Source: Phenylobacterium sp.
GTDB lineage: Bacteria > Pseudomonadota > Alphaproteobacteria > Caulobacterales > Caulobacteraceae
Reading direction: 5' to 3'
DNA length: 64,000 nucleotides
Assembly (NCBI GenBank): GCA_018001015.1
Contig: JAGNIV010000016.1
Location: forward strand, 18,526 to 82,525
Both the position numbers and the translations under genes were made by a program. The notes under the pieces are model-generated. The model was not told where the DNA came from, made no database searches, and saw only the letters and a list, made by a program, of their open reading frames with translations. This document shows positions 12,446 to 63,551 of the stretch, one piece after another. Within the stretch, counting starts at the first letter, position 1. The number at the start of each line of letters is the position of its first letter.

Positions 12446-12979
12446 TTGAGCCCGCCCCGCCGACCAAGCAGCCTGGATTCGACCCCCGAGCCTGACCCGC
12501 GAGGACAGGCCGAGATGCTGTCGGAAATCCTGCGGGCCATCCGCCTGGAGCGCCGGCTGCGAACAAGTGATGTCGCCCGCGCCATGGGGATGCCCCTGCG
12601 ATCATATGAGCATTTCGAGGCCGGACGCGGCCGACTTGATCTTCAGCGGCTGCAGACGTTCGCCGACGCCACGGACAGCGATCCCTTCGCCATTGTGGCC
12701 GCGTTGATCCTCAAGCGTCCGGAATTCGCTCTGCGGGTGGCCGACAGCAAGTTGATGGTCGTGATGATGCTGTCACTGGACGACTTCAATGAGGACTTGG
12801 GTGAGGACATTCGTCTCATTGAGGTTCGTGTGCTGGTGGGCGCTTTCCGGCGGGTTTTTCAAGACCTGACCGACCACGTCCGCAAACGTGACCTCACCGC
12901 CGAGCGCTGGCTTGATGACCGGTCCAGGCGAATGGGGCTGCCCTCCCACTTCACGAAGGGGCGGTCGCGTAAGGCCTGA
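12446..12979 (+). CDS. XRE-like HTH regulator, paralogue of the gene at 61599
   Basis: 177 aa from a TTG start preceded by GGAAGGGA; an in-frame ATG at 12515 is the alternative. The HTH lies at about residues 28-75 (LRTSDVARAMGMPLRSYEHF), followed by a helical domain RPEFALRVADSKLMVVMMLS and DFNEDLGEDIRLIEVRVLV. Roughly half of the residues match the protein encoded at 61599 over about 120 aa. I do not know the family by name. The C-terminus RSRRMGLPSHFTKGRSRKA is basic. It may regulate the element or the metal genes; no target is evident. Confidence 0.75.
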   Translation: MSPPRRPSSLDSTPEPDPRGQAEMLSEILRAIRLERRLRTSDVARAMGMPLRSYEHFEAGRGRLDLQRLQTFADATDSDPFAIVAALILKRPEFALRVADSKLMVVMMLSLDDFNEDLGEDIRLIEVRVLVGAFRRVFQDLTDHVRKRDLTAERWLDDRSRRMGLPSHFTKGRSRKA

Positions 12980-50850: not shown

Positions 50851-51336
50851 ATGTCATGGGTGAGGGAGTTTCAGGAACGGCTGGGCGGGCTCTACGCCAC
50901 CCACGCCAAGCGGATTTCGCGCAGCCTCGCCGCCAAGGGTCTCGCGAATTCTGAGGATGTGACGCAGGAGACCTTCGTCCGGCTCGCGACCGCCCCCATC
51001 CCAATCCGTCACCCCAAGGCCCTGCTGATGACTGTCGCGACCAACCTGGCGCGCGACGAGATAAGACGTCAGAAGCGCCAGGGGGGCGCCCACCTGTCGC
51101 TCGATCAGGCCTATGCTGAGAATGAGCCTTGGGCCGCGCCCGACCAGGAGACCGCCCTCCTCCTGAAACAGGTCATCCTGTCGATGCCGAAGCTCTACCG
51201 GAACGTGTTTGTCTTGAGCAGGTTCGCGGGTCTGAGCTATGAGGAGATTGCAGAACGCTGCAACGTGTCGGTCAAGACGGTCGAGTGGCGAATGACCAAG
51301 GCCCTGGCCCACTGCGCCGCGCTGCTGCGCGACTAG
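50851..51336 (+). CDS. FecI-type ECF sigma factor
   Basis: 161 aa ECF sigma. Region 2 has ATHAKRISRSLAAKGLANSE and VTQETFVRLATA; region 4 has MPKLYRNVFVLSRFAGLSYE and CNVSVKTVEWRMTKALAH. First of the plus-strand lasso set, followed by FecR and the TonB receptor. By analogy with FecIR systems, ligand binding at the receptor would free this factor to transcribe receptor and isopeptidase genes. Confidence 0.92.
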   Translation: MSWVREFQERLGGLYATHAKRISRSLAAKGLANSEDVTQETFVRLATAPIPIRHPKALLMTVATNLARDEIRRQKRQGGAHLSLDQAYAENEPWAAPDQETALLLKQVILSMPKLYRNVFVLSRFAGLSYEEIAERCNVSVKTVEWRMTKALAHCAALLRD

Positions 51337-51351
51337 CCGACCGGGAACGCC

Positions 51352-52368
51352 ATGAGCGCACAAGCCTCGGCAGATGATGAGCGCGCGCGCCTCGAAGCGG
51401 CCGAGTGGTTCGCACGCCTGAATTCCAAGACCGTCTCCACCGACGCCTTGCGCGACTTTCGCGTGTGGCGCGGAACGCCTGGCAACGCGGCGGCCTATGC
51501 CCACCTGGAGGCGATCTGGAAGGCGGCCGAACCCTTGGCCACGGACGCCGACATCGCCAGCGCGATCGAAGAGGCGTTGACCCCGGCGCGCACGGGCAGG
51601 AGCCTCGATGACTGGCTGCAGCTGGTGGTCCGCTCACCGCTGAAGTTCGCGGTCCTGGCTCTGCTCGGGCTGGGCCTGCTCAGCGTCTCAGCCGCCGTGC
51701 TCGCAGGTCTCGGCGGCCGGACCTATAGCTCCGGCCTGGGCGAGCAGCGCATCGTCCGTCTGGAGGACGGTAGCCAGTTGCGTCTCGATACCGACACCCA
51801 GGTGCGCGTTCGCTTCAGCAAAGACGCCCGACAGATACATCTCGGCCGCGGCCAGGCCTTCTTCGACGTGGCGCATGATGCGACGCGGCCCTTTACCGTT
51901 GCGGCCGACGACACCGAGGTGCGGGCCCTGGGCACGCGGTTCGACGTTCGTCGGGACGCCGGAGGGGTTCAGGTGACCCTGGTCGAGGGCAAGGTCCGGG
52001 TGCGGCAGACCGAGGGCGATCGCCAGTGGACCATGGGGCCGGGCGAACAGTTGCGGGTGACGGACGCCAAGCCCACCGCCCCCAACCAGGTCCGGCGCAT
52101 CGATGTCGCCGCAGCCACCAGCTGGACCAGCGGCCGGCTGACCTTCCACCAAACCCCGCTCGCCAGCGCCATCGCCGAGGTCAACCGCTATGGCCGCACG
52201 AAGGTGAGCCTGGACGCGCCCGGGCTGGCCGATCGCCAGGTCAGTGGCGCCTTCGACAGCGGCGATACCGAAGCCTTCGTGGCCGCTGTCGCCGAACTCT
52301 ATAACCTTGAGGCCGACCGCCGGGACGGCCAGATCGTTTTGCGGCCGGTGGGATCGGCGGCGAGTTAG
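51352..52368 (+). CDS. FecR-type transmembrane anti-sigma factor
   Basis: 338 aa. An N-terminal cytoplasmic DUF4880 domain (EAAEWFARLNSKTVSTDALR) is followed by one membrane helix (about 98-120), the FecR domain (LGEQRIVRLEDGSQLRLDTD and FDVAHDATRPFTVAADDTEV), and a C-terminal STN-like domain (about 255-335). It pairs with the FecI-type factor encoded 15 bases upstream and senses the receptor. Confidence 0.93.
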   Translation: MSAQASADDERARLEAAEWFARLNSKTVSTDALRDFRVWRGTPGNAAAYAHLEAIWKAAEPLATDADIASAIEEALTPARTGRSLDDWLQLVVRSPLKFAVLALLGLGLLSVSAAVLAGLGGRTYSSGLGEQRIVRLEDGSQLRLDTDTQVRVRFSKDARQIHLGRGQAFFDVAHDATRPFTVAADDTEVRALGTRFDVRRDAGGVQVTLVEGKVRVRQTEGDRQWTMGPGEQLRVTDAKPTAPNQVRRIDVAAATSWTSGRLTFHQTPLASAIAEVNRYGRTKVSLDAPGLADRQVSGAFDSGDTEAFVAAVAELYNLEADRRDGQIVLRPVGSAAS

Positions 52369-52448
52369 CCGCCCGTTTGAAAAAAGTTTGCGCGGTGAGT
52401 CAGGGTCGAGATCGCGTGCGGACGTCTCACCTCCCGACCCGCGCGGAC

Positions 52449-55400
52449 ATGAGACCGGCCACCACGGCCGACCGCCGCCCGGGTCTTGGGGGATACACCT
52501 TGGGCCCGTCCACCTTCCGTCGCCATCTCATCGCAGGCCTCGCCCTGCCCATGCTCAGTCTCGCTATGACCGCGCCTCCCGTAGCGGCTTCGGCCGCCCC
52601 GGTCTCAACGGTAAGCTTCGACATCCCGGCCGGCCCGCTGGACGTGGCTCTGAGCGCCTACGCCGCCCAGAGCCACCAACAGCTCCTCTACACACCGGAG
52701 CTGGTTGCGGGTCGTAGGGCGCCGGCCGTGCGTGGTGCCCTGCCCGCCAGCCAGGTGCTGCGCACGTTGCTGGCCGACAGCCCGATCACCGCGACGACCA
52801 TTCGTCCTGATGTTATCGTCCTGAAAGCCGCCGACGCCGACAAGCGGGGCGCCAGCTTTCCGGCGCCGCCGCTAGGCGTGGAGCGCGCGACGGCGCTGGC
52901 CGGCCCGACCGTGCTGGAAACCCTGGTGGTGACCGGGTCGCACATCCGCGGCGCCCGCGACGCCGCCTCCCCCATCGTCACCTTCGGGCGCGACGACATC
53001 GACCGCAGCGGCCGCTCCACCGTGGCAGAGGCGCTCAATGCGCTGCCGCAGAACTTCGGCGGACTGGGCACTCCGGCCAGTCTGCTCGCCGGCTCAGATC
53101 GCACTGGCGTCAACAGCCAGGCCGCCAACGGCGTGAACCTGCGCGGCCTGGGGGCCGACGCGACCCTGGTGCTGGTGGATGGCCGCCGCCTGGCTGGCAC
53201 CGGCCTGCGCGGCGACTTCGCCGACGTGTCCTCGATCCCCACCGCCGCCATCGCGCGGGTGGACGTGCTGCTCGATGGCGCCTCGGCGCTCTACGGATCC
53301 GACGCCGTGGGCGGTGTGGTCAACATCATCCTGCGCCGAGACTTCGATGGTGCGGAAACCAGGGCCCGCGTCGGGATCGCGTCCGGCGGCGGCGCGCGCG
53401 AAACCCAGTTCGCCCAGACCTTCGGCAAAACCTGGGACGGCGGCCACGCCCTCTTCTCCTATGAGTATTACGACCGTGATCCGTTGCCGGCGGCAAAGCG
53501 CGACTATACCGCCTCTGACGACCTGCGGCCCTTTGGCGGAACCGACCACCGGGGGTTCTACACAAACCCCGGCAACATCCTGGTCTTCGACGCCCCGACC
53601 AACGCCTACAAGCCCGCCTACGCCATTCCGGCGGGCCAGAACGGGTCGAGCCTGACGACGGCGAGTTTCCGGCTCGGAACGGCGAACTACGGCTCGGCGC
53701 GGGACGGCTCCGACATCCTGCCTGGCCAGACCCGCAACAGTCTCTATGCGGCCTTCGCCCAGGACCTCTCAGCGACGGTCGAGCTTTCCGCGGACGCCCG
53801 CTTCAGTCGCCGCGTCTTCGCCTATGCCAGTGCGCCGGCCACCACCGCGCTCTCGATCGGCTCGGCCAATCCCCACTTCGTCATGGCCCCCGACGGTCAG
53901 ACCTCGCAATTGATCGCCTATAGCTTCGGCGACGAGATCGGCCCGGTGCAGGCGAGCGGAGCCTCGGAAAGCCTGGCCCTCACGACAGCCCTGCGGGCCG
54001 ATCTCGGCCGCACCTGGCGGATCGAGGGTTACGCCGCCTTCGCCCAAGAGATCGGCACGAGCCTCAACGCAAACCTGATCAACTCGGCCTACCTCACCGA
54101 GGCGCTTGGAGGGTCCGACAACGCGTCCACCGGCTTCCGGGCGACCCGCGACGGATACTTAAACCCCTATGGCGATGGCGGCGCCAACAGCGCCGCGATC
54201 CTGGACTTCATCAGCTCCGGCTACAGCCGCGCGCGCAATGTCAGCCGCAATGAGACGATCAACATGCAGGCGGACGGGACGCTGTTCGCCCTGCCGGCTG
54301 GTGATGTGAAGATGGCGGTGGGCGCTAATTGGCGGCGGGAGATCTTCCGCCAGCAGAACCGCGCCCTGCTCTCGACCGCCGTCGAGCGGACCGGCCAGCG
54401 GCTGAGCTACCAGCGCACCGTCTCCTCGGCCTATGCCGAGTTGCGCGTCCCCCTGGTGTCCCCAGACGCCGCGCTGCCTGGCGTGCGCCGGCTCGACCTG
54501 TCCTTGGCGGCGCGGATGGAGGACTTCAGCGATGTGGGCCGGACCACCAATCCCAAGGTCGGCCTGGCCTGGGAGCCTGTCGAGGGACTGGCCCTGCGCG
54601 CGACCTATGGCACGTCGTTCCGCGCGCCCAGCCTGTCGGAAGTCTATGAGGCGCCCGATGTCAGCGCCTCGTTCCTGACCCGCAACGGCGCGCGAACCCT
54701 GAGCCTGATCCAGTATGGCGGAAACCTGGACCTCAAACCGGAGACCGCCACCTCCTGGACGGCCGGGTTCGACGTAACGCCCCCGGCCTTACCGGGCCTG
54801 AAGGTCAGCGGCACTTGGTTCCGCACGGACTTCAGCGACCGCATCGGCCAGCCCGCGCGCGAAAACCTCACCGTCGCCCTGCGCGATCCCACCCTGGCGA
54901 GCTTCGTGCATGTTATCGATCCGGGCAGCGCCGCCGATCTGGCGCAGGTCAACACCCTGATCACCTTCCCAACCTATCCCTACCAGGGCCTGTTCCCGGC
55001 CAGCGCCTATGGTGCGATCGTCGACGCCCGCTGGGTCAACACCGCCAGCGTCAAGGTGCAAGGGGTGGACGGTCAGATCGGCTACAGCTTCGATCGGGGC
55101 GCCGACCGCTTCGACCTCTCGGCGAACGCCTCCTACCTGCTGACCTTCGAGCGCCAAGTGACCCCGCAGGCGGCGCCAGTCGATGTGGTTGGCGTGGCCG
55201 GCAATCCCGCGCGCTTCCGGGGGCGGGCGCAGGCGGCTTGGCGCCGGGGTTCGGTGAGCGCGAGCCTGGCGGTAAACTACCAGAGCCAGGAGAAGGACCT
55301 AGCCGGCAAGACCATCGACAGCTGGACCACCAGCGACCTTCAGCTCGGATGGACATCGGACCACGAAGGCCCGCTCGGCGGCCTGACACTGGCGCTGAGC

Positions 55401-55523
55401 GTCCAGAATCTCTTCGACACCCGACCCCCATTTTACGACAGCCCCGCCGGGATCGGCTTCGACGCCGCCAACGCCGAGCCGCTCGGACGCTTTGTCTCGC
55501 TCCAACTGACCAAGCGCTGGTGA
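52449..55523 (+). CDS. TonB-dependent receptor with STN signalling domain
   Basis: 1024 aa from ATG 52449; a TTG at 52377 is open too but has no ribosome site. Signal segment (about 25-50), then an STN domain (about 55-125, FDIPAGPLDVALSAYAAQSH) that contacts FecR. The plug has LETLVVTGSHIRGARDAASP and ALNALPQNFGG; a 22-strand barrel ends VSLQLTKRW. In this cluster type it imports the lasso peptide, or a related ligand, for cleavage by the neighbouring isopeptidase. The ligand is inferred from context. Confidence 0.93.
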   Translation: MRPATTADRRPGLGGYTLGPSTFRRHLIAGLALPMLSLAMTAPPVAASAAPVSTVSFDIPAGPLDVALSAYAAQSHQQLLYTPELVAGRRAPAVRGALPASQVLRTLLADSPITATTIRPDVIVLKAADADKRGASFPAPPLGVERATALAGPTVLETLVVTGSHIRGARDAASPIVTFGRDDIDRSGRSTVAEALNALPQNFGGLGTPASLLAGSDRTGVNSQAANGVNLRGLGADATLVLVDGRRLAGTGLRGDFADVSSIPTAAIARVDVLLDGASALYGSDAVGGVVNIILRRDFDGAETRARVGIASGGGARETQFAQTFGKTWDGGHALFSYEYYDRDPLPAAKRDYTASDDLRPFGGTDHRGFYTNPGNILVFDAPTNAYKPAYAIPAGQNGSSLTTASFRLGTANYGSARDGSDILPGQTRNSLYAAFAQDLSATVELSADARFSRRVFAYASAPATTALSIGSANPHFVMAPDGQTSQLIAYSFGDEIGPVQASGASESLALTTALRADLGRTWRIEGYAAFAQEIGTSLNANLINSAYLTEALGGSDNASTGFRATRDGYLNPYGDGGANSAAILDFISSGYSRARNVSRNETINMQADGTLFALPAGDVKMAVGANWRREIFRQQNRALLSTAVERTGQRLSYQRTVSSAYAELRVPLVSPDAALPGVRRLDLSLAARMEDFSDVGRTTNPKVGLAWEPVEGLALRATYGTSFRAPSLSEVYEAPDVSASFLTRNGARTLSLIQYGGNLDLKPETATSWTAGFDVTPPALPGLKVSGTWFRTDFSDRIGQPARENLTVALRDPTLASFVHVIDPGSAADLAQVNTLITFPTYPYQGLFPASAYGAIVDARWVNTASVKVQGVDGQIGYSFDRGADRFDLSANASYLLTFERQVTPQAAPVDVVGVAGNPARFRGRAQAAWRRGSVSASLAVNYQSQEKDLAGKTIDSWTTSDLQLGWTSDHEGPLGGLTLALSVQNLFDTRPPFYDSPAGIGFDAANAEPLGRFVSLQLTKRW

Positions 55524-55585: not shown

Positions 55586-58009
55586 ATGCGCGCCTGGCTG
55601 CGCTCCCTTCTGCTTGGCTTGACCATGCTTGCGACCCCCGTCCACGCCCGCCCCTTCACGGTCGAGGACCTGTTCGACCTGTCCTCGGTCGAGGCCTATG
55701 CCGCCGATCCCACCGGCCGCTGGCTGGTGATCCAGACCAGCGGACCCTACGGTTCCGCCCCGACCTTCGACGACTTCGGTTATGTCGAGTTGCGTACCAG
55801 CCGGCTGCTGATGGCCGATCTGACTGCGCCTGCTCCTGCCAAGCCGCTGTTCGCGCAAGAGGCGGGGATCGGCTACGCACCCGGTCCCTTCTCTCCGGAC
55901 GGTCGGCGAATGGTGGTGTTCCGGCGCTACGGCCGGTCATGGGACCTGGGCGTTGCGACTCTAGAGAGCGGCGATGTGCGCTGGTGGCCGATCACGCCGG
56001 AACTCGCCCTCTATGGACGTACAGTCCAGTGGCGCTCCAATAGCCAACTGCTGGTCATCGCCCGGCCGTATGACGACCTGCCGCGTCACCTGCGCTTCGG
56101 ATCGGAGTCGATGCGCGATCTGCCGGACCGATGGGCGAAAACCGCGAGCGGCGGGGCGTCCGTCACCGCCATCGGCAGCGGCCGCTTCGAGACAGCGACG
56201 GATCTCCCGGCGGTCAACACGCTGCTCAACGTCAATGCCAGCAACGGATCGGCCACAGCGCTGGTCTCCGGCGGGTTCTTTGATCTCGAGCTCTCCCCCA
56301 GCGGTCTTTATGCCGCCCTGCTGGAGGACCTAGAGCCCCTGCCCCGCCCAGAACACGGCGCCTACTCGGCGAGCACCGCGCCACTACGAAGACGCAATCT
56401 GCGGCTTGTCGACCTGACGACCGGCATGGCCACGACACCCTGCCAGCATTGCGACCTGCTCACCCATTTGCTCACCTGGTCGCCGCGCGCCGACCGCCTA
56501 CTGATCTTTGGTCGGCGCCTTGGTGAGGCCTGGGGGGACGGTCGCCTGACCCTGGTCGAGCCAGGGGGCGTCACCCGCGGCCTCAAACCCGCCGGTCTGC
56601 GGCCGGTGATCTCAGTGACAGGCGAAGGCATCCCTTACGTGTCCGCCGATTGGCTCGGCGGCAAGCCGGTGGTGCGCGCGCAATCCACCCTGCCCGACGG
56701 GCGGATCGACTGGTATCGCTTGACCAAGGCCGGACCTCGCAATCTCACGGCCCGCTTCCCGACCCCGCCTCGACAAATCGCGGCGCGCGCCACGGCTGGC
56801 CTGTGGTTTGAGGCCGAAGATGGGGTTTGGGGCGTGGCGCCGGCCGGCCATTCAGTGCGCTTCACGCAGCGGGCGGGGATCAGCCTGCTCCGCGCTGGAA
56901 CCTTCGGCCAAGGGCAACGCTTCGATGTCAACGCGCCACCGCCTGCCAGCGCGGTCGCAGTCATCGACCGCACCGAGTCCGAGGTGCGGGTAGCGCCAGC
57001 GTTGGACCTGCTGGCTCCCCGATCGATGTCGGTGACCGACCCCACCGAGACGCTCGAAGTCGTGTCGCCGCACGGGGTGGTGACGCGTCACCGCGACGCA
57101 AGCGGATACGACCGGTTCGCATTCGTTGGCGATAACGGAAGGCGCACCGCTCTGCTCGACATCAATCCGCAGCTCAAAGCCTTCGACTTCGCAACGGTTT
57201 CGCCGGTCCGGCACGCAGGGGGTTCCGGCCAGCCAATCGTTGGTTGGCTCTATCTGCCGGCCGGCCATAGGCCACGCGTGCGCCTGCCGTTGGTGGTGAT
57301 CCCCTATCCCGGCGACGTCTATACGAGGCCACCCAGTTCAGGCGACCCGGGCTGGTTTGCCCCGTTCCCCAACATCCAGGTATTGGCCGCCCAAGGCTAC
57401 GCGGTCCTGGTCCCCAACCTGCCGCGCGCGCCCGGCGAGGAGCCGGCCGGCGGTTTGACCGGTCAGATCCTCGGGGCCGTGGACGCCGCCATCGCCGGCG
57501 GCGACATCGATCCCAAACGCGTGGCGCTCTGGGGCCACAGCTTTGGCGGATTTGCCGCCCTGGTTGCCGCCACTCAGACGGAGCGCTTCAAGGGCATCAT
57601 CGCATCAGCCGCAACGTCCGACATGGTGAGCCAATGGGCCGGCGTCGATCCGGCCCGGCGGTTCCGGCCTAGTGATGGCGTCGGCGGTTTCGGCTCGATG
57701 CGCTGGAGCGAGAGTGGCCAAGGCACAATGGGCGCGCCGCCCTGGAGCGACACCGACCGCTACCTGCGCAATAGCCCGCTGTTCGCCGCGGACAAGGTCA
57801 ACACGCCGGTGCTGCTGATCCATGGTGATCAGGATGAAAACCCGGTCGGTCAGTCCGAGGAGATGTTCTATGCGCTCTGGCGGCAGAACAAGGACGCCCA
57901 GTTACTGATCTACTGGGGCGAACATCACACCCCCAGCAGCCCGGGCAACCTGCGCGACCTCTATGGGCGGGTTTTCAAATGGCTGCGGATGACGATGCCC
58001 CCAAACTGA
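55586..58009 (+). CDS. Lasso-peptide isopeptidase (S9 / prolyl-oligopeptidase fold)
   Basis: 807 aa. Signal peptide (ends near VHARP) so probably periplasmic. A propeller-like N-domain (about 30-550) precedes an alpha/beta-hydrolase domain with GHSFGG (Ser652), HGDQDENP (Asp750) and GEHHTP (His780/781). This fits the S9-like isopeptidases that open lasso rings. Its end overlaps the macrolactam synthetase gene by 35 bases on the opposite strand. Substrate assignment is by gene context. Confidence 0.9.
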   Translation: MRAWLRSLLLGLTMLATPVHARPFTVEDLFDLSSVEAYAADPTGRWLVIQTSGPYGSAPTFDDFGYVELRTSRLLMADLTAPAPAKPLFAQEAGIGYAPGPFSPDGRRMVVFRRYGRSWDLGVATLESGDVRWWPITPELALYGRTVQWRSNSQLLVIARPYDDLPRHLRFGSESMRDLPDRWAKTASGGASVTAIGSGRFETATDLPAVNTLLNVNASNGSATALVSGGFFDLELSPSGLYAALLEDLEPLPRPEHGAYSASTAPLRRRNLRLVDLTTGMATTPCQHCDLLTHLLTWSPRADRLLIFGRRLGEAWGDGRLTLVEPGGVTRGLKPAGLRPVISVTGEGIPYVSADWLGGKPVVRAQSTLPDGRIDWYRLTKAGPRNLTARFPTPPRQIAARATAGLWFEAEDGVWGVAPAGHSVRFTQRAGISLLRAGTFGQGQRFDVNAPPPASAVAVIDRTESEVRVAPALDLLAPRSMSVTDPTETLEVVSPHGVVTRHRDASGYDRFAFVGDNGRRTALLDINPQLKAFDFATVSPVRHAGGSGQPIVGWLYLPAGHRPRVRLPLVVIPYPGDVYTRPPSSGDPGWFAPFPNIQVLAAQGYAVLVPNLPRAPGEEPAGGLTGQILGAVDAAIAGGDIDPKRVALWGHSFGGFAALVAATQTERFKGIIASAATSDMVSQWAGVDPARRFRPSDGVGGFGSMRWSESGQGTMGAPPWSDTDRYLRNSPLFAADKVNTPVLLIHGDQDENPVGQSEEMFYALWRQNKDAQLLIYWGEHHTPSSPGNLRDLYGRVFKWLRMTMPPN

Positions 58010-59753
58010 GCCGGGAAATCCGATCTTCCCAGTTGCGAACCCAGGATTCCAGAAAGGCCGCATAGCGAAGAGCCGCATAGCCGCCGTCCCACACCAACCG
58101 TTCGGGAACCAGGATTTGGTCCAACAACTCACGATCCAGCAGGCCCTCGGCCGCCAGCCGCCCCTCCATCAGGTGCTCGCGCAGGGCCGCCAGACCGGCA
58201 GCCAGCCGCCGGCCATAGGGCGCGGTCAGGTCGCCTTTCGACCAGCGGGACACGACGGCGGCCGGTAGGCGATCGGCGAAGACCTGACGCGCCAGGGCGC
58301 GATCCCGCACGCCCAGGGTCAGGGTTCCCGCCGAGACCGCCAGGCAGTGCTCGATCAACGGCTGCGACAACAAGGGATGGACGACATCGACGGCGCGGGC
58401 GCGCCGGCAATCGCCAAAATATATGCTGCAACCGATCAGTTCGCGGGCTTGCAGGCGCTTTGCTGGCGGCAGGCCTTCGAGGCCTTGGTGCCAAGGATGC
58501 TCGCTCCGCCAGGAAGGATTGATGGGCTTGATGAAAGCCGGGGCGCCCGGAGCCTCCGGATCATGCCCGCGCCCGGCGCGCGACATGGCGGCCAGCACCG
58601 ACCAGACCGAGACCTTGCGCCAGCGCGCGACGGTAAGAACGTGGGACGAGATATAGGCCCGCGGCCCCAAGGTGCGCAGGGCGTCGACCGCGACCTTGAG
58701 CGTCGGGAGCTGGAAAAAGAGGACGTCCCCGCCCTGCCCAGTCAGCATCATCTCCGCGCCGTCGGCTTCGCAGCGGGCCACCACGTCGCGGTCATAGCCG
58801 GGGTCCAGACCGCAAAGCGACGGGCGGTGCGCGGTCGCGGCCGGCCCAAAATCGAGGGGATCGAAGGCTTCGTCAGAGGTGGGCGCCTCGGTGAGACGCA
58901 CGTCCAGATGTTCGGCGACCGCACGCGCATAGGCGCGCTCGTCACCCCAGGGCTCCGGTCCAAAGTAGTTCAGCCAAGTCCGCGGCTGCGCGCCAGAGGT
59001 CTGGTGCAGCGCCCCCGCGACGATGGCGGAATCCAGCCCTCCCGAGACTTCGGTCAGCAGCGGCCGGCCCTGACCGGCATAGGCCGCCACACAGAGATCG
59101 ACGGCGTTTCGCAGGCCCGAGGCGGCGACGTCAGAATCCAGGATCGGGTTGGCTGCGAAATCCGCCGGCCGCCAGAGTGTGGGCATCCCACCGTCGTGGC
59201 GGAGGACGCCGGGGGCGACGCTCTCGACTCCCGTCAGCGCCAGACGACCGCCGACGTCGCCAGCATCGGCAAGCAACTCGGCGAGACGTTCCCAATCCAG
59301 GGCCAGCTGTGGCATTGCCTCCGCCGCCAGATCTTCCGGCAGATGCGAGGCGGCGAACCGCACCGGTCCGATCGACCAGGTAATGCAATCCAAGGCGCCG
59401 GACGGATCGCGAAACATGGCGGGGGAATTTCGCGGCCCCCGCAGCAGAGCCACATATCGCCCCCAGTACCCGCGCAACAGCAGGCATGAGAGTTCGGTTG
59501 GGGCGATGTCGGGCAAGTCTTGCAGGGCGCAAGCTGGGAGAACGGCGCTGGAGTGGTTGCGGAAAAGGTCGCCGACCACCAGTCCCTCACCATCAGCCAG
59601 GGCTCGCACCGGCACCCCCGGCGGCGTGGCTAGCCGCCATGGCCCGCCGGCATCGGTGATGGGCCAGCCCAGCGACCGGACCACAAGGTCCCACAGAGCG
59701 GCCCCGGCCTTGTCAGCCGCAACGGGCCAATGAGCGGCGAGGAAGGCGCGCAT
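57975..59753 (-). CDS. Lasso macrolactam synthetase (C protein, asparagine-synthetase-like)
   Basis: 592 aa from ATG 59753, one base after the B stop; the frame to 59846 is spurious. The N-terminal half is a degenerate glutaminase domain without the catalytic Cys. The synthetase half has the PP-loop VSGGLDSAIVAGAL (237-242 core). It adenylates the Glu9 side chain of the core so the Gly1 amine can close the ring. It acts with the B protein. Confidence 0.93.
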   Translation of the reverse strand: MRAFLAAHWPVAADKAGAALWDLVVRSLGWPITDAGGPWRLATPPGVPVRALADGEGLVVGDLFRNHSSAVLPACALQDLPDIAPTELSCLLLRGYWGRYVALLRGPRNSPAMFRDPSGALDCITWSIGPVRFAASHLPEDLAAEAMPQLALDWERLAELLADAGDVGGRLALTGVESVAPGVLRHDGGMPTLWRPADFAANPILDSDVAASGLRNAVDLCVAAYAGQGRPLLTEVSGGLDSAIVAGALHQTSGAQPRTWLNYFGPEPWGDERAYARAVAEHLDVRLTEAPTSDEAFDPLDFGPAATAHRPSLCGLDPGYDRDVVARCEADGAEMMLTGQGGDVLFFQLPTLKVAVDALRTLGPRAYISSHVLTVARWRKVSVWSVLAAMSRAGRGHDPEAPGAPAFIKPINPSWRSEHPWHQGLEGLPPAKRLQARELIGCSIYFGDCRRARAVDVVHPLLSQPLIEHCLAVSAGTLTLGVRDRALARQVFADRLPAAVVSRWSKGDLTAPYGRRLAAGLAALREHLMEGRLAAEGLLDRELLDQILVPERLVWDGGYAALRYAAFLESWVRNWEDRISRLSLGASSSAAI

Positions 59754-59754
59754 C

Positions 59755-60414
59755 TCAGACCGCCAGGATCGGCATGTAGCCGGCCACGTGATCGAGGTGG
59801 TCGTCGAGCACGAGATCACCGGCCTGCAGCCAGCAATGCGCCTCAAACGGCCACGTCCGCACGCCGAAGGCCCAGACCGCGTCCAAGCCGGCGTGACGGA
59901 GCAGGTTCAACAAGAGGAAGCTGCGGTAGAGGCAGACGCCCTGGAACGGCGCCCAGGGTAGCAGAGCCCGGAATGCGGCGACCTGATGCACGAGCGCCTG
60001 AACGTCGGCCGCGTCTTGTACCGGGCGCCGCCGACGGGCCGTCGCGATCAGATGCGCAAAGCTGCGACCGTGATAGTGCGCGGCGACATCGCCGAGCGCC
60101 TGTCCCATGCGCCAGACATCTTGACCTGAGGCGTGCCCGGCTTCGATGGAAAGGCTATGGGCGGGGCGGCGGAGGACCGGGCGTGGCTGCGCCGCAAATC
60201 CAGGGACTATCCAGCCAGCCTCAGCCAGGCCTTCAGCAAAGATGAGATCGGAAATCTCGAGGGCGAAATGCTCGCCTAGGTCCTGGACCAATCCGCCTCC
60301 GCCAGGGATGCAGGCATAGCGTCCGGCCGCCACGTCGAGAAGCACGAGATCATCGCCGCAGACGGCGATGTGGCGGTCAGGCGCGAGCCGCCAGGAGGAA
60401 GGGGAACTGCGCAT
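59755..60414 (-). CDS. Lasso leader peptidase (B protein, RRE plus transglutaminase-like)
   Basis: 219 aa from ATG 60414; the frame to 60519 overlaps the precursor gene. An N-terminal RRE-like domain (about 10-75, DRHIAVCGDDLVLLDVAAGR) binds the leader. The C-terminal cysteine-protease domain has Cys161 (FQGVCLYRSFLLLN), His193 (FEAHCWLQ) and Asp205 (LVLDD). One fused B chain is usual for proteobacterial clusters. It cuts after the leader of the precursor encoded just upstream. Confidence 0.9.
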   Translation of the reverse strand: MRSSPSSWRLAPDRHIAVCGDDLVLLDVAAGRYACIPGGGGLVQDLGEHFALEISDLIFAEGLAEAGWIVPGFAAQPRPVLRRPAHSLSIEAGHASGQDVWRMGQALGDVAAHYHGRSFAHLIATARRRRPVQDAADVQALVHQVAAFRALLPWAPFQGVCLYRSFLLLNLLRHAGLDAVWAFGVRTWPFEAHCWLQAGDLVLDDHLDHVAGYMPILAV

Positions 60415-60425
60415 GGCAGGCCCAA

Positions 60426-60451
60426 CTGGCGCCGGCTCGCGCCGGCGCCAG
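60426..60451 (-). repeat. Perfect hairpin between precursor and B gene
   Basis: CTGGCGCCGGC (60426-60436) and GCCGGCGCCAG (60441-60451): 11-base perfect stem, 4-base loop. It lies 6 bases after the precursor stop. Such a hairpin would stabilise precursor mRNA or attenuate B/C, giving more substrate than enzyme. Confidence 0.75.
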
Positions 60452-60457
60452 CCGCGT

Positions 60458-60571
60458 TCAGCCGGCCGGGTTGTAGGGCCGTTCGTCGAGCTCGTTCTTG
60501 GTGCCCGATTGCTGGCCACGGGTCAGAACCTTGGCGGCGCCGAGGCTGATGAGTTTCAGGGTCTTGGACAT
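60458..60571 (-). CDS. Lasso peptide precursor (A)
   Basis: 37 aa, ATG 60571 with GGAG 8 bases upstream. The leader is residues 1-18, ending KVLTR with Thr at position -2, the conserved lasso cleavage mark. The predicted core is GQQSGTKNELDERPYNPAG. Gly1 and Glu9 would form a 9-residue ring, leaving a 10-residue tail with Arg13 and Tyr15 as possible plugs. The length and Glu9 ring resemble caulosegnin-type peptides, as recalled. It lies between gntR and B. Confidence 0.88.
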   Translation of the reverse strand: MSKTLKLISLGAAKVLTRGQQSGTKNELDERPYNPAG

Positions 60572-60645: not shown

Positions 60646-61311
60646 TCAAACTATATCCGGAATATATTCTCGGGGGCGGGCCGAGCGGAGGGCCTTGACC
60701 AGTTCCGAGGCTGCTTCCCGCCGTGGCCCGTAATAGGCGCCCAGCAGTTCCGCCAAGCCTGCCTGGTCGCCAACTCTCAGGCGGTCGGTCATTTCGGCCA
60801 CAACCGCCACGTCCTGCAGGCCGGCCCGGATCTCCGCGCGCCCGATAGGCGCCAGACGCTCGGCGATCCTCTGATAGGCGATGCTCAGCGTCTCGTTGCG
60901 CGCCCTCCCCACCAAGCACGAAAACAGGCGGCGAGCCGCGTCACCGACGTCAGGCTCAAATCCGCCCTCCCCGGCGCCGAGATCCTCAGAGTTTTCGACC
61001 AGGCGCCAAGGCGCCGCGAGCGCCGCGCTCACATAGAGCCGATGCAGATCGAACATCTCGACAAGTCGCTCGCTATCCAGTTGCGGACTGAAAAACCCCT
61101 GACCCCGACGTTCCTCAGCCAGGCCCTCCCCAGCCAAGTGAGCGAGAGCCTCACGAACTGGAGTCGGGCTCAGCTTCAATTCCCGAGCAAGCTCAGTGAT
61201 GGACAGCGGCGCTCCGGGCGCGTGCTGACCGACGATCAGCTGGTGCCTGATCGCGGCCAGGGCGGAACCAAAGGGATCGCGTCTCTGCGGCACGACAACT
61301 CCAGCGGCCAC
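60646..61311 (-). CDS. GntR-family regulator of the lasso locus
   Basis: 221 aa from GTG 61311. N-terminal winged HTH (SITELARELKLSPTPVREAL) and a helical FadR-type C-domain (about 85-215). It lies 74 bases upstream of the precursor gene in the same direction, and GntR genes accompany other isopeptidase-type lasso loci as I recall. It probably controls A-B-C. The effector is unknown. Confidence 0.88.
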   Translation of the reverse strand: MAAGVVVPQRRDPFGSALAAIRHQLIVGQHAPGAPLSITELARELKLSPTPVREALAHLAGEGLAEERRGQGFFSPQLDSERLVEMFDLHRLYVSAALAAPWRLVENSEDLGAGEGGFEPDVGDAARRLFSCLVGRARNETLSIAYQRIAERLAPIGRAEIRAGLQDVAVVAEMTDRLRVGDQAGLAELLGAYYGPRREAASELVKALRSARPREYIPDIV

Positions 61312-61598: not shown

Positions 61599-62087
61599 AT
61601 GACTCGAACCTCCGTGAGCGCTTCGAAATCCTCGAATGGGCTGGCCTCGGCCCTACGAGCCATCCGCCGTCACCGCCAGAGGCGCCCCGGCGATCTCGCA
61701 GAGGCTCTGCGCCTGCCGCGACGTTCATACGAGCACTTTGAAGCCGGCGGCGGCCGTCTCAACACCGATCGTGTGCAGGCGTTCGCCGAGGCGACCCAGT
61801 CCGACGCCTATGCGATCTTCGCCAGCCTTTGGATCGCCTCGCCGGAGTTTGCCGTGCGCTGCGCCGACAACAAGCTAATGACGATCCTGATTATGGCCTT
61901 GCAGGACTTCGACGCCGCCGCGGGAGACGATATCGCGCGTCTGGACGCGCGCACCCTGATCACCGCCTTCGACACGCTCTTCCAGACGCTCACCGCCGAA
62001 GCCCAGCACCGAAATGTGAGCACGGACGCCGAGATCGTTGAGCGTCTTCGCCGCCTAGCTCCACCGCCAAAGTCCACAGATGAATAG
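61599..62087 (+). CDS. HTH regulator, paralogue of the gene at 12446
   Basis: 162 aa from ATG 61599; the frame to 61503 is open but lacks support. HTH at about 17-60 (RRPGDLAEALRLPRRSYEHF). The C-domain has SPEFAVRCADNKLMTILIMA and DFDAAAGDDIARLDARTLIT. Roughly half of it matches the protein at 12446. It stands between the lasso locus and fic. Function unknown beyond DNA binding. Confidence 0.78.
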   Translation: MTRTSVSASKSSNGLASALRAIRRHRQRRPGDLAEALRLPRRSYEHFEAGGGRLNTDRVQAFAEATQSDAYAIFASLWIASPEFAVRCADNKLMTILIMALQDFDAAAGDDIARLDARTLITAFDTLFQTLTAEAQHRNVSTDAEIVERLRRLAPPPKSTDE

Positions 62088-62171: not shown

Positions 62172-63551
62172 TCAGAGGCCGCGCCGGATGGTCTGAGCGA
62201 CGGCCGCCACCAAGCGCTCGTCCGGATGAAACCCCGAGCCGTGCAATTCGCGCAGAAGCACCTCGAAGTCGGCGTATCGGGGCGGCTCCTCGGCTTTTGC
62301 GAGCACCTCCATCCGGTCGGCCAAAGCCTCCACCGCCCGCCGACGAGCTAATGTTTCGTCAGGGCTTAGAAGTCCGGCTCCGTCCCGAACGGTCTTGTCG
62401 GCGTGAAGCCGGACGTATCGAGCGACGGTCTCCAGAGCATCCCCCGCCGTGACGATCAGGACGTAGCTGGTGCTGCGCCCGCCACCGGGGTCCTTGGCTA
62501 GGACACCGCAGTCTATCAGGTCGTCGATATCCCGTGAGGCGGTGTCCTGCGAGCACTTGGCCAGTGCGGCGTACTTGGATGAAGTGAGTTTGCCCTCGAA
62601 GCCGTTGAGCAGGCGGTTCACCACCGTGCGCTGGCGGTCGTTCAGCGGCGCCCCCGTATGGGCCTCCCAGAAATGCGCTTTCCTGAGGACTGACGCTAAA
62701 ATGGACTCCGAGCCGGCGAACGCTCTGTCCAGGCAACCGAGGAACCACGCGATCCAGGCCGTGATATCCAAGTCGCCATGCTGAGCGGCCTCCAGGTGGT
62801 CGTAGTACGGTTTCCGCTCGACCCGGATTTGTGCGGATAGACTGTAGAACCGGCGCGGGCTGCCCTCCGAACGCGCCAAGGCCATGTCGGCGATGGCCCG
62901 GCCTATCCGGCCGTTTCCGTCCTCGAACGGGTGGATCGTGACGAACCACAGGTGAGCGACGGCCGCGACCAGAACCGGGTCGATCGCTTCCTTGGCGTTG
63001 AACCAAGCGAGGAAGGTGCGCATCTCACGATCGAGGACGTCGGCGTGCGGCGCCTCGAAATGGACGCGCTCGCGCCCGACAGGCCCAGAGACGACCTGCA
63101 TTGGTCCTGACTCAGCTGTGCGCCAAGCGCCGACAGTGATCTTGTTCATGCCGCTGCGCCCGGTCGGAAACAGCGCCGCGTGCCAGGCGAGCAACCGCTC
63201 CTTGGTAAGCGGGGCGGCATAGTTTTGTGTGGCGTCGAGCATCATCTCGACAACGCCTTCCACGTCTCGATCAACGGGCGTGAGGGCTCCGATGTCCATT
63301 CCCAGACGCCGAGCGAGCGAAGATCGCACCTGGTCGCGATCGAGAACCTCCCCCTCGATCTCGCTCGACTTGAGGACTTCTTCGGTGAGCGACTGCAGAA
63401 CGGCTTCCGCGCGCAGCTGGAAGCCGAGACCCTCCATCCGACCGATGAGGCGACCCTGGTGGTGGCGAACTGAGCCCAGCTGGGCGGCGAGCTGCACGTG
63501 GCTCCAAGTGAAGGTGGGCCAATCCGGCCGCTCGTGGATGTAGGTCCGCAT
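62172..63551 (-). CDS. Fic-family AMP-transferase with wHTH C-terminus
   Basis: 459 aa from ATG 63551. DUF4172-type N-domain (WPTFTWSHVQLAAQLGSVRH). The N-terminal inhibitory motif S62-S-E-I-E-G fits the (S/T)xxxE(G/N) pattern. The catalytic motif is HPFEDGNGRIGR (207-218), complete. The C-terminus has a winged HTH (KYAALAKCSQDTASRDIDDL). It would modify target proteins with AMP, repressed by its own helix, and may bind the operators upstream of its gene. Stand-alone gene. Confidence 0.9.
   Translation of the reverse strand: MRTYIHERPDWPTFTWSHVQLAAQLGSVRHHQGRLIGRMEGLGFQLRAEAVLQSLTEEVLKSSEIEGEVLDRDQVRSSLARRLGMDIGALTPVDRDVEGVVEMMLDATQNYAAPLTKERLLAWHAALFPTGRSGMNKITVGAWRTAESGPMQVVSGPVGRERVHFEAPHADVLDREMRTFLAWFNAKEAIDPVLVAAVAHLWFVTIHPFEDGNGRIGRAIADMALARSEGSPRRFYSLSAQIRVERKPYYDHLEAAQHGDLDITAWIAWFLGCLDRAFAGSESILASVLRKAHFWEAHTGAPLNDRQRTVVNRLLNGFEGKLTSSKYAALAKCSQDTASRDIDDLIDCGVLAKDPGGGRSTSYVLIVTAGDALETVARYVRLHADKTVRDGAGLLSPDETLARRRAVEALADRMEVLAKAEEPPRYADFEVLLRELHGSGFHPDERLVAAVAQTIRRGL

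Follow-up and report, generated by a model that had tools for sequence, protein, structure and literature searches.

Does the 37-codon reading frame at positions 60458-60571 of this Phenylobacterium contig encode a lasso peptide, and, if it does, what kind of cluster surrounds it? We analyzed a 64,000-nucleotide stretch of the contig, referred to here as the window, and the features under discussion are collected in Table 1. The translation of the frame is MSKTLKLISLGAAKVLTRGQQSGTKNELDERPYNPAG, followed by a stop codon, and a GGAG motif lies a few bases 5' of the ATG. An initial annotation had placed the gene between a GntR gene and genes for the lasso enzymes B and C; its coordinates were right, and we add the strand (minus), which it lacked. 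The Thr that it reported at leader position -2 is confirmed by translation. The core, GQQSGTKNELDERPYNPAG, begins with Gly1, and Glu9 is the sole Asp or Glu at core positions 7-9, so that among the usual ring sizes nine residues alone is possible, in agreement with the Gly1-Glu9 ring pair predicted earlier. Recomputation also reproduces the mass calculated previously (2041.95 Da, 2+ near 1021.98): the predicted lasso has a computed mass of 2041.9453 Da and an [M+2H]2+ of 1021.9799, against 2059.9559 Da and a 2+ ion at 1030.9852 computed for linear GQQSGTKNELDERPYNPAG.

When searched against known families, the precursor scored 22.9 bits with the NCBIfam benenodin-family model NF033522, below its cut-off of 33, and it retrieved one chain from the PDB at E 0.0041. 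A longer in-frame precursor of 153 aa, starting from an upstream GTG, was considered and rejected, as the open frame of the sister species spans just 47 aa. Taken together, the sequence of the gene itself, the homology of the neighboring B and C proteins, and the conservation described below strongly support the assignment of 60458-60571 as a predicted lasso precursor gene.

Table 1. Features of the predicted lasso peptide cluster, ordered by position in the window
Feature	Position	Strand	Details
FecI-like ECF sigma factor	50851..51336	+	PF08281, PF04542
FecR-like anti-sigma factor	51352..52368	+	PF04773, 83.2 bits
TonB-dependent receptor with STN domain	52377..55523	+	start codon unsure; PF00593, PF07715, PF07660
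S9 peptidase, isopeptidase position	55586..58009	+	807 aa; PF00326, 88.9 bits
C protein, predicted ATP-dependent macrolactam synthetase (asparagine-synthase family)	57975..59753	-	592 aa; PF00733
B protein, predicted leader peptidase (transglutaminase fold)	59755..60414	-	219 aa; NF033537, PF13471
RNA hairpin between A and B	60423..60454	-	14-bp stem, 4-nt loop; fold -38.5 kcal/mol, z -2.8
Precursor gene A	60458..60571	-	37 codons; from translation
Gene A stop codon	60458-60460	-	
Gene A core	60461-60517	-	19 aa, GQQSGTKNELDERPYNPAG
Gene A leader	60518-60571	-	18 aa, Thr at -2, MSKTLKLISLGAAKVLTR
GntR-family regulator, upstream of A	60646..61311	-	PF00392, 49.3 bits
HTH protein gene, divergent from GntR	61599..62087	+	Pfam HTH_31, 22.4 bits, below cut-off 27

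The two genes that follow A encode proteins with the expected biosynthetic folds. B exceeds the cut-off of the lasso_biosyn_B2 model NF033537 (64.2 bits against 33) and is the one lasso B2 match in the genome from which the window derives. Its residues Cys161, His193, and Asp205 are invariant in all 24 aligned rows, the window included, as is the motif SGGLDS (237-242) of C; we take both sets to be catalytic. About 108 residues precede the Pfam match in B and perhaps form an N-terminal leader-binding domain; at E 0.01 no domain, the RRE (B1) included, was detected there. C matches PF00733 at 87.6 bits (cut-off 21) and falls far under both NCBIfam lasso-cyclase models (74.6 bits against a cut-off of 300 and 25.3 against 525); because neither cut-off is reached, its assignment to lasso biosynthesis rests on genomic context. 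A PDB search with C returned no match. Relatives of C (E up to 1e-20) are encoded in 124 of 299 genomes of the family, a count that includes the window's own genome and AtxE2-type clusters, which rules out the notion that such clusters are rare in this family.

Comparison with related genomes shows that the precursor is conserved. In a sister species, represented by the Phenylobacterium MAG contig NZ_JAUYAF010000097.1 (locus L002, genome G214), the precursor is identical at 37 of 37 residues, and the two A genes are separated by three synonymous and no nonsynonymous differences. The neighboring genes have accumulated amino-acid differences between the same two species at 16 of 219 codons (B), 46 of 592 (C), and 27 of 221 (GntR). 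The protein encoded by gene A is conserved while its own DNA drifts, which is more than chance. In a third species (G271), the corresponding position holds MSKTPQLKLVRLGSAKVLTRGAISGVKEELQGGYFPAG, with 64% identity in tblastn. In the L005 relative, TRG is retained at the leader-core junction, and Glu occupies position 8 as well as position 9. Precursor matches at E up to 0.01 occur in 6 of 101 genomes of the genus, the window's own among them. We additionally listed precursor candidates across 32 loci by a pattern that itself demands Thr at -2 and an acid, so that the list is no test of those rules; candidates were absent from six loci (L008, L010, L023, L024, L028, and L030). Seven loci (L012, L015, L019, L022, L025, L026, and L027) have two tandem candidates before B, and L032 has a single candidate with an internal repeat.

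The initial annotation held that this core is not among named lasso peptides, and that claim stands against two sources: a search of literature text, which did not find the string GQQSGTKNELDERPYNPAG and had lists of predicted lasso peptides outside its scope, and Table 1 of PMC12427821, none of whose 62 entries it matches. Gapped alignments to 43 of these 62 entries (of the 19 omitted, roughly half bear disulfides) gave low scores throughout, the best being sphingonodin II at 19.0, with six identities, followed by brevunsin and albusnodin at 18.0 each; the core of the G271 relative scores 39.0 in the same kind of alignment. The same core can already be found in the public sister-species MAG contig NZ_JAUYAF010000097.1, and for that reason genome-mining lists may already contain GQQSGTKNELDERPYNPAG.

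Beyond the precursor and its enzymes, the window contains the accessory genes of an isopeptidase-type lasso cluster. The initial annotation had recognized GntR, A, B, and C correctly and had overlooked the S9 peptidase, the TonB-dependent receptor, the FecI/FecR pair, the HTH gene, and the hairpin between A and B. With these included, one arm comprising HTH, GntR, A, the hairpin, B, and C converges on a second arm comprising the S9 peptidase, TonB receptor, FecR, and FecI, and it is their presence that makes this a standard cluster of the isopeptidase type. According to PMC9266682, the layout of the isopeptidase clusters known at the time is nearly constant: GntR precedes the precursor gene, and a TonB transporter and a sigma/anti-sigma pair lie on the far side of the isopeptidase gene; the window shares this layout, with GntR before A and the receptor and sigma/anti-sigma genes beyond the peptidase gene. 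Of the proteins scanned, seven from 37.5-49.9 kb and ten from the cluster with its flank, none was an ABC transporter.

The arrangement recurs in relatives. Across 21 related loci of 13.7-21.8 kb—L002 plus 20 picked by hand from 30, largely by score—tblastn at E 1e-3 matched GntR in 21/21, HTH, the S9 peptidase, and the TonB receptor in 19/21 each, FecR in 18/21, and FecI in 17/21, and some of the absent matches (L035, L044) fall at sequence ends. L033, the closest precursor relative after the identical one, and L050 have no S9, receptor, or Fec match within about 8 kb. Variations on the layout include GntR and HTH genes on the far side of the cluster (L039), an inverted FecI (L037), and two GntR matches each in L040 and L048.

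Several features of the surroundings deserve mention in their own right. In G271, the lasso genes sit, as judged by eye, between integrase-like and efflux-like ORFs (L033 2372-3709 and 10047-17450). The window also carries conjugation genes (VirB4-like, SLT transglycosylase) and metal-resistance genes (CopB, a multicopper oxidase, P-type ATPases) at 8016-49866, and in the sister species some of the P-type ATPase region is likewise found next to the lasso cluster. The HTH protein of the cluster and one encoded at 12446-12979 belong to one family (45% identical), and the latter lies near the VirB4-like and transglycosylase genes of the conjugation module. Next to the cluster, at 62172-63551, lies a gene for a Fic-domain protein with an N-terminal DUF4172.

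The hairpin that follows the A stop codon is likewise a recurrent element. Twenty-two of the 26 loci with a precursor candidate entered the test (left aside were L001 and L002, as copies of other loci, and L026 and L032); the L027 gap was too short to fold, and L003 is the window itself. A stem follows the A stop in 20 of the 21 folded A-B gaps, the window included, with widely differing sequences, and the fold z is at most -2 in 16 of 21, lying above -2 in L012, L015, L016, L022, and L025; several of these loci are near-copies, so the 21 gaps are not independent cases. No T run follows the hairpin in the window, for which reason we do not call it a terminator. Such a hairpin is known, given that the astexin-1 entry in Table 2 of PMC7549694 lists "removal of the hairpin." In the window, the element probably increases the amount of precursor mRNA relative to enzyme mRNA.

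The gene in the isopeptidase position encodes an S9 peptidase with a signal-like N-terminus (by eye). Ser652 and His781 are conserved without exception across 22 rows, acids are found at 748 and 750, and residues 517-803 align with AtxE2 (PDB 5txc) such that the Ser, acid, and His segments correspond. The protein scores 91.3 bits against the AtxE2 isopeptidase family NF033523, below the cut-off of 400; of nine relatives, eight score 42-79 bits and the ninth (L040) falls below the E 1e-10 listing. Proteins above that cut-off occur in 24 of 199 genomes of the family, spread over three genera. Other S9 peptidases in the PDB give better matches to the window enzyme than AtxE2. A tree built from 57 catalytic domains places the 21 caulosegnin-type enzymes in one clade (support 100/99), with the exact caulosegnin III locus L077 inside it, and nine AtxE2-type enzymes in a separate clade (support 100/99); the two lasso clades group together against 27 other S9 domains in 44% of bootstrap trees. 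These 27 rows came from three genomes, the AtxE2-type loci were ten chosen from those above the cut-off, and two rows, L083 (AtxE2-type) and L116 (other S9), were dropped when the script did not find its motif. L083 (8046-9845) scores above the family cut-off, and its active site may differ, given that the script found no GxSxG. The sub-cut-off scores and the distinct clade rule out the window enzyme as a plain member of the AtxE2 family.

Among the isopeptidases that PMC9266682 mentions are AtxE1, AtxE2, SpI-IsoP, and BenE. Judged from sequence, isopeptidase is the likeliest function of the window S9 protein. We know of no activity test for the caulosegnin S9 clade. A bolder proposal is that the S9 proteins of about 800 residues in caulosegnin-type clusters, that of the window included, constitute a second family of lasso isopeptidases that joined similarly arranged clusters independently of the AtxE2 family; we put this forward tentatively, as a possibility with the balance tilted against it.

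We propose that this Phenylobacterium locus represents a lasso cluster of the isopeptidase type and caulosegnin kind, to all appearances intact. We are highly confident in the biosynthetic part of this proposal, in which the leader would hold the 37-residue precursor for processing, B would cleave after Arg18, and C would activate Glu9 and link it to the new N-terminal Gly1. The predicted product is a 9-residue ring with a 10-residue tail of 2041.945 Da, presumably closed and threaded, and it would then be exported. The part concerned with uptake and opening we favor with markedly more reserve: the TonB receptor, equipped with an STN domain, probably reimports the lasso peptide and signals via FecR and FecI; cleavage of the isopeptide bond is the probable task of the S9 peptidase.

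Three alternatives to this proposal were considered. Biosynthesis might run as outlined and the S9 clade nonetheless act on some other substrate, as is suggested by the distance of the window enzyme and its relatives from the AtxE2 cut-off, by the better PDB matches to other S9 peptidases, and by a clade that stands apart from the AtxE2 type and joins it in fewer than half of the bootstrap trees. Against this, the gene occupies the position of the AtxE2-type peptidase in similarly laid-out clusters, and the alignment with AtxE2 brings the catalytic segments into register; we regard a different substrate as unlikely, if well worth keeping in view.

The remaining two alternatives concern the peptide itself. 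Silence or decay of the cluster in this strain, such that no peptide is made, is improbable when all ten annotated reading frames are open, the presumed catalytic residues are present, and the precursor protein has been kept despite DNA drift. Even less probable is a core that starts, or a ring that closes, elsewhere, which would make the predicted mass wrong. The cleavage site was predicted solely from the Thr-2 rule, which gives this idea its footing; that rule is, on the other hand, stated in PMC7549694, and the L005 relative keeps both the TRG junction and Glu9, albeit with Glu8 as well. We retain the isopeptidase-type lasso cluster as the preferred reading of the locus.

The biological role of the isopeptidase group of lasso peptides has been called enigmatic in PMC9266682. 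The locus adds to that group one well-supported predicted core whose mass can be tested. Because a single precursor was found and a receptor, a sigma/anti-sigma pair, and a peptidase are adjacent, it would offer a compact system for probing what such a peptide is for, and the same cluster would be suited to asking whether the S9 clade of caulosegnin-type clusters opens lassos as AtxE2 does.

Among named lasso peptides, several resemble the predicted product in part. The host of brevunsin is Brevundimonas, and the brevunsin core pattern was present in none of the 131 genomes of the genus searched. The core of zucinodin is presumably unlike GQQSGTKNELDERPYNPAG. Zucinodin, from Phenylobacterium zucineum, is a named lasso peptide of the same genus as the window, according to PMC11851819. 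Like GQQSGTKNELDERPYNPAG, brevunsin starts with Gly1 and has Glu9, and the two sequences end similarly (LYPPAG versus PYNPAG), with nine identities in a gapped alignment; brevunsin differs in having 21 residues where the window core has 19 (PMC12427821). Caulosegnin II matches the window core in its 19 residues and in Glu at position 9 (Table 1 of PMC12427821), and differs in sequence, with seven identities in a gapped alignment. The Caulobacter segnis cluster has three caulosegnin precursors, as given in PMC13352647, whereas one was found in the window.

At the level of whole clusters, AtxE2-type loci (those of the astexins and benenodin) have a similar layout, with C, B, S9, and TonB receptor matches in 10/10, FecR in 9/10, GntR in 8/10, and FecI in 4/10; unlike the window, none of the ten loci has an HTH match. 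Their S9 proteins score above the NF033523 cut-off and belong to the other clade, whereas the window S9 falls below it, and their C proteins score 153-212 bits against the window C, compared with 306 and 308 for two caulosegnin-like loci. When a Caulobacter-like genus (75 genomes) was searched for the published caulosegnin III core, four genomes matched, G185 over all 19 residues. The G185 locus, L077, which is of the caulosegnin type and has the exact caulosegnin III core, contains relatives of the HTH, GntR, TonB receptor, FecR, and FecI genes, with identities to the window of 36% for C, 37% for S9, 45% for the TonB receptor, and 23% for HTH. Its gene order and S9 clade are the same as those of the window, and on this homology the window cluster is a further predicted isopeptidase lasso cluster of the caulosegnin type, a grouping that is that of the present analysis.
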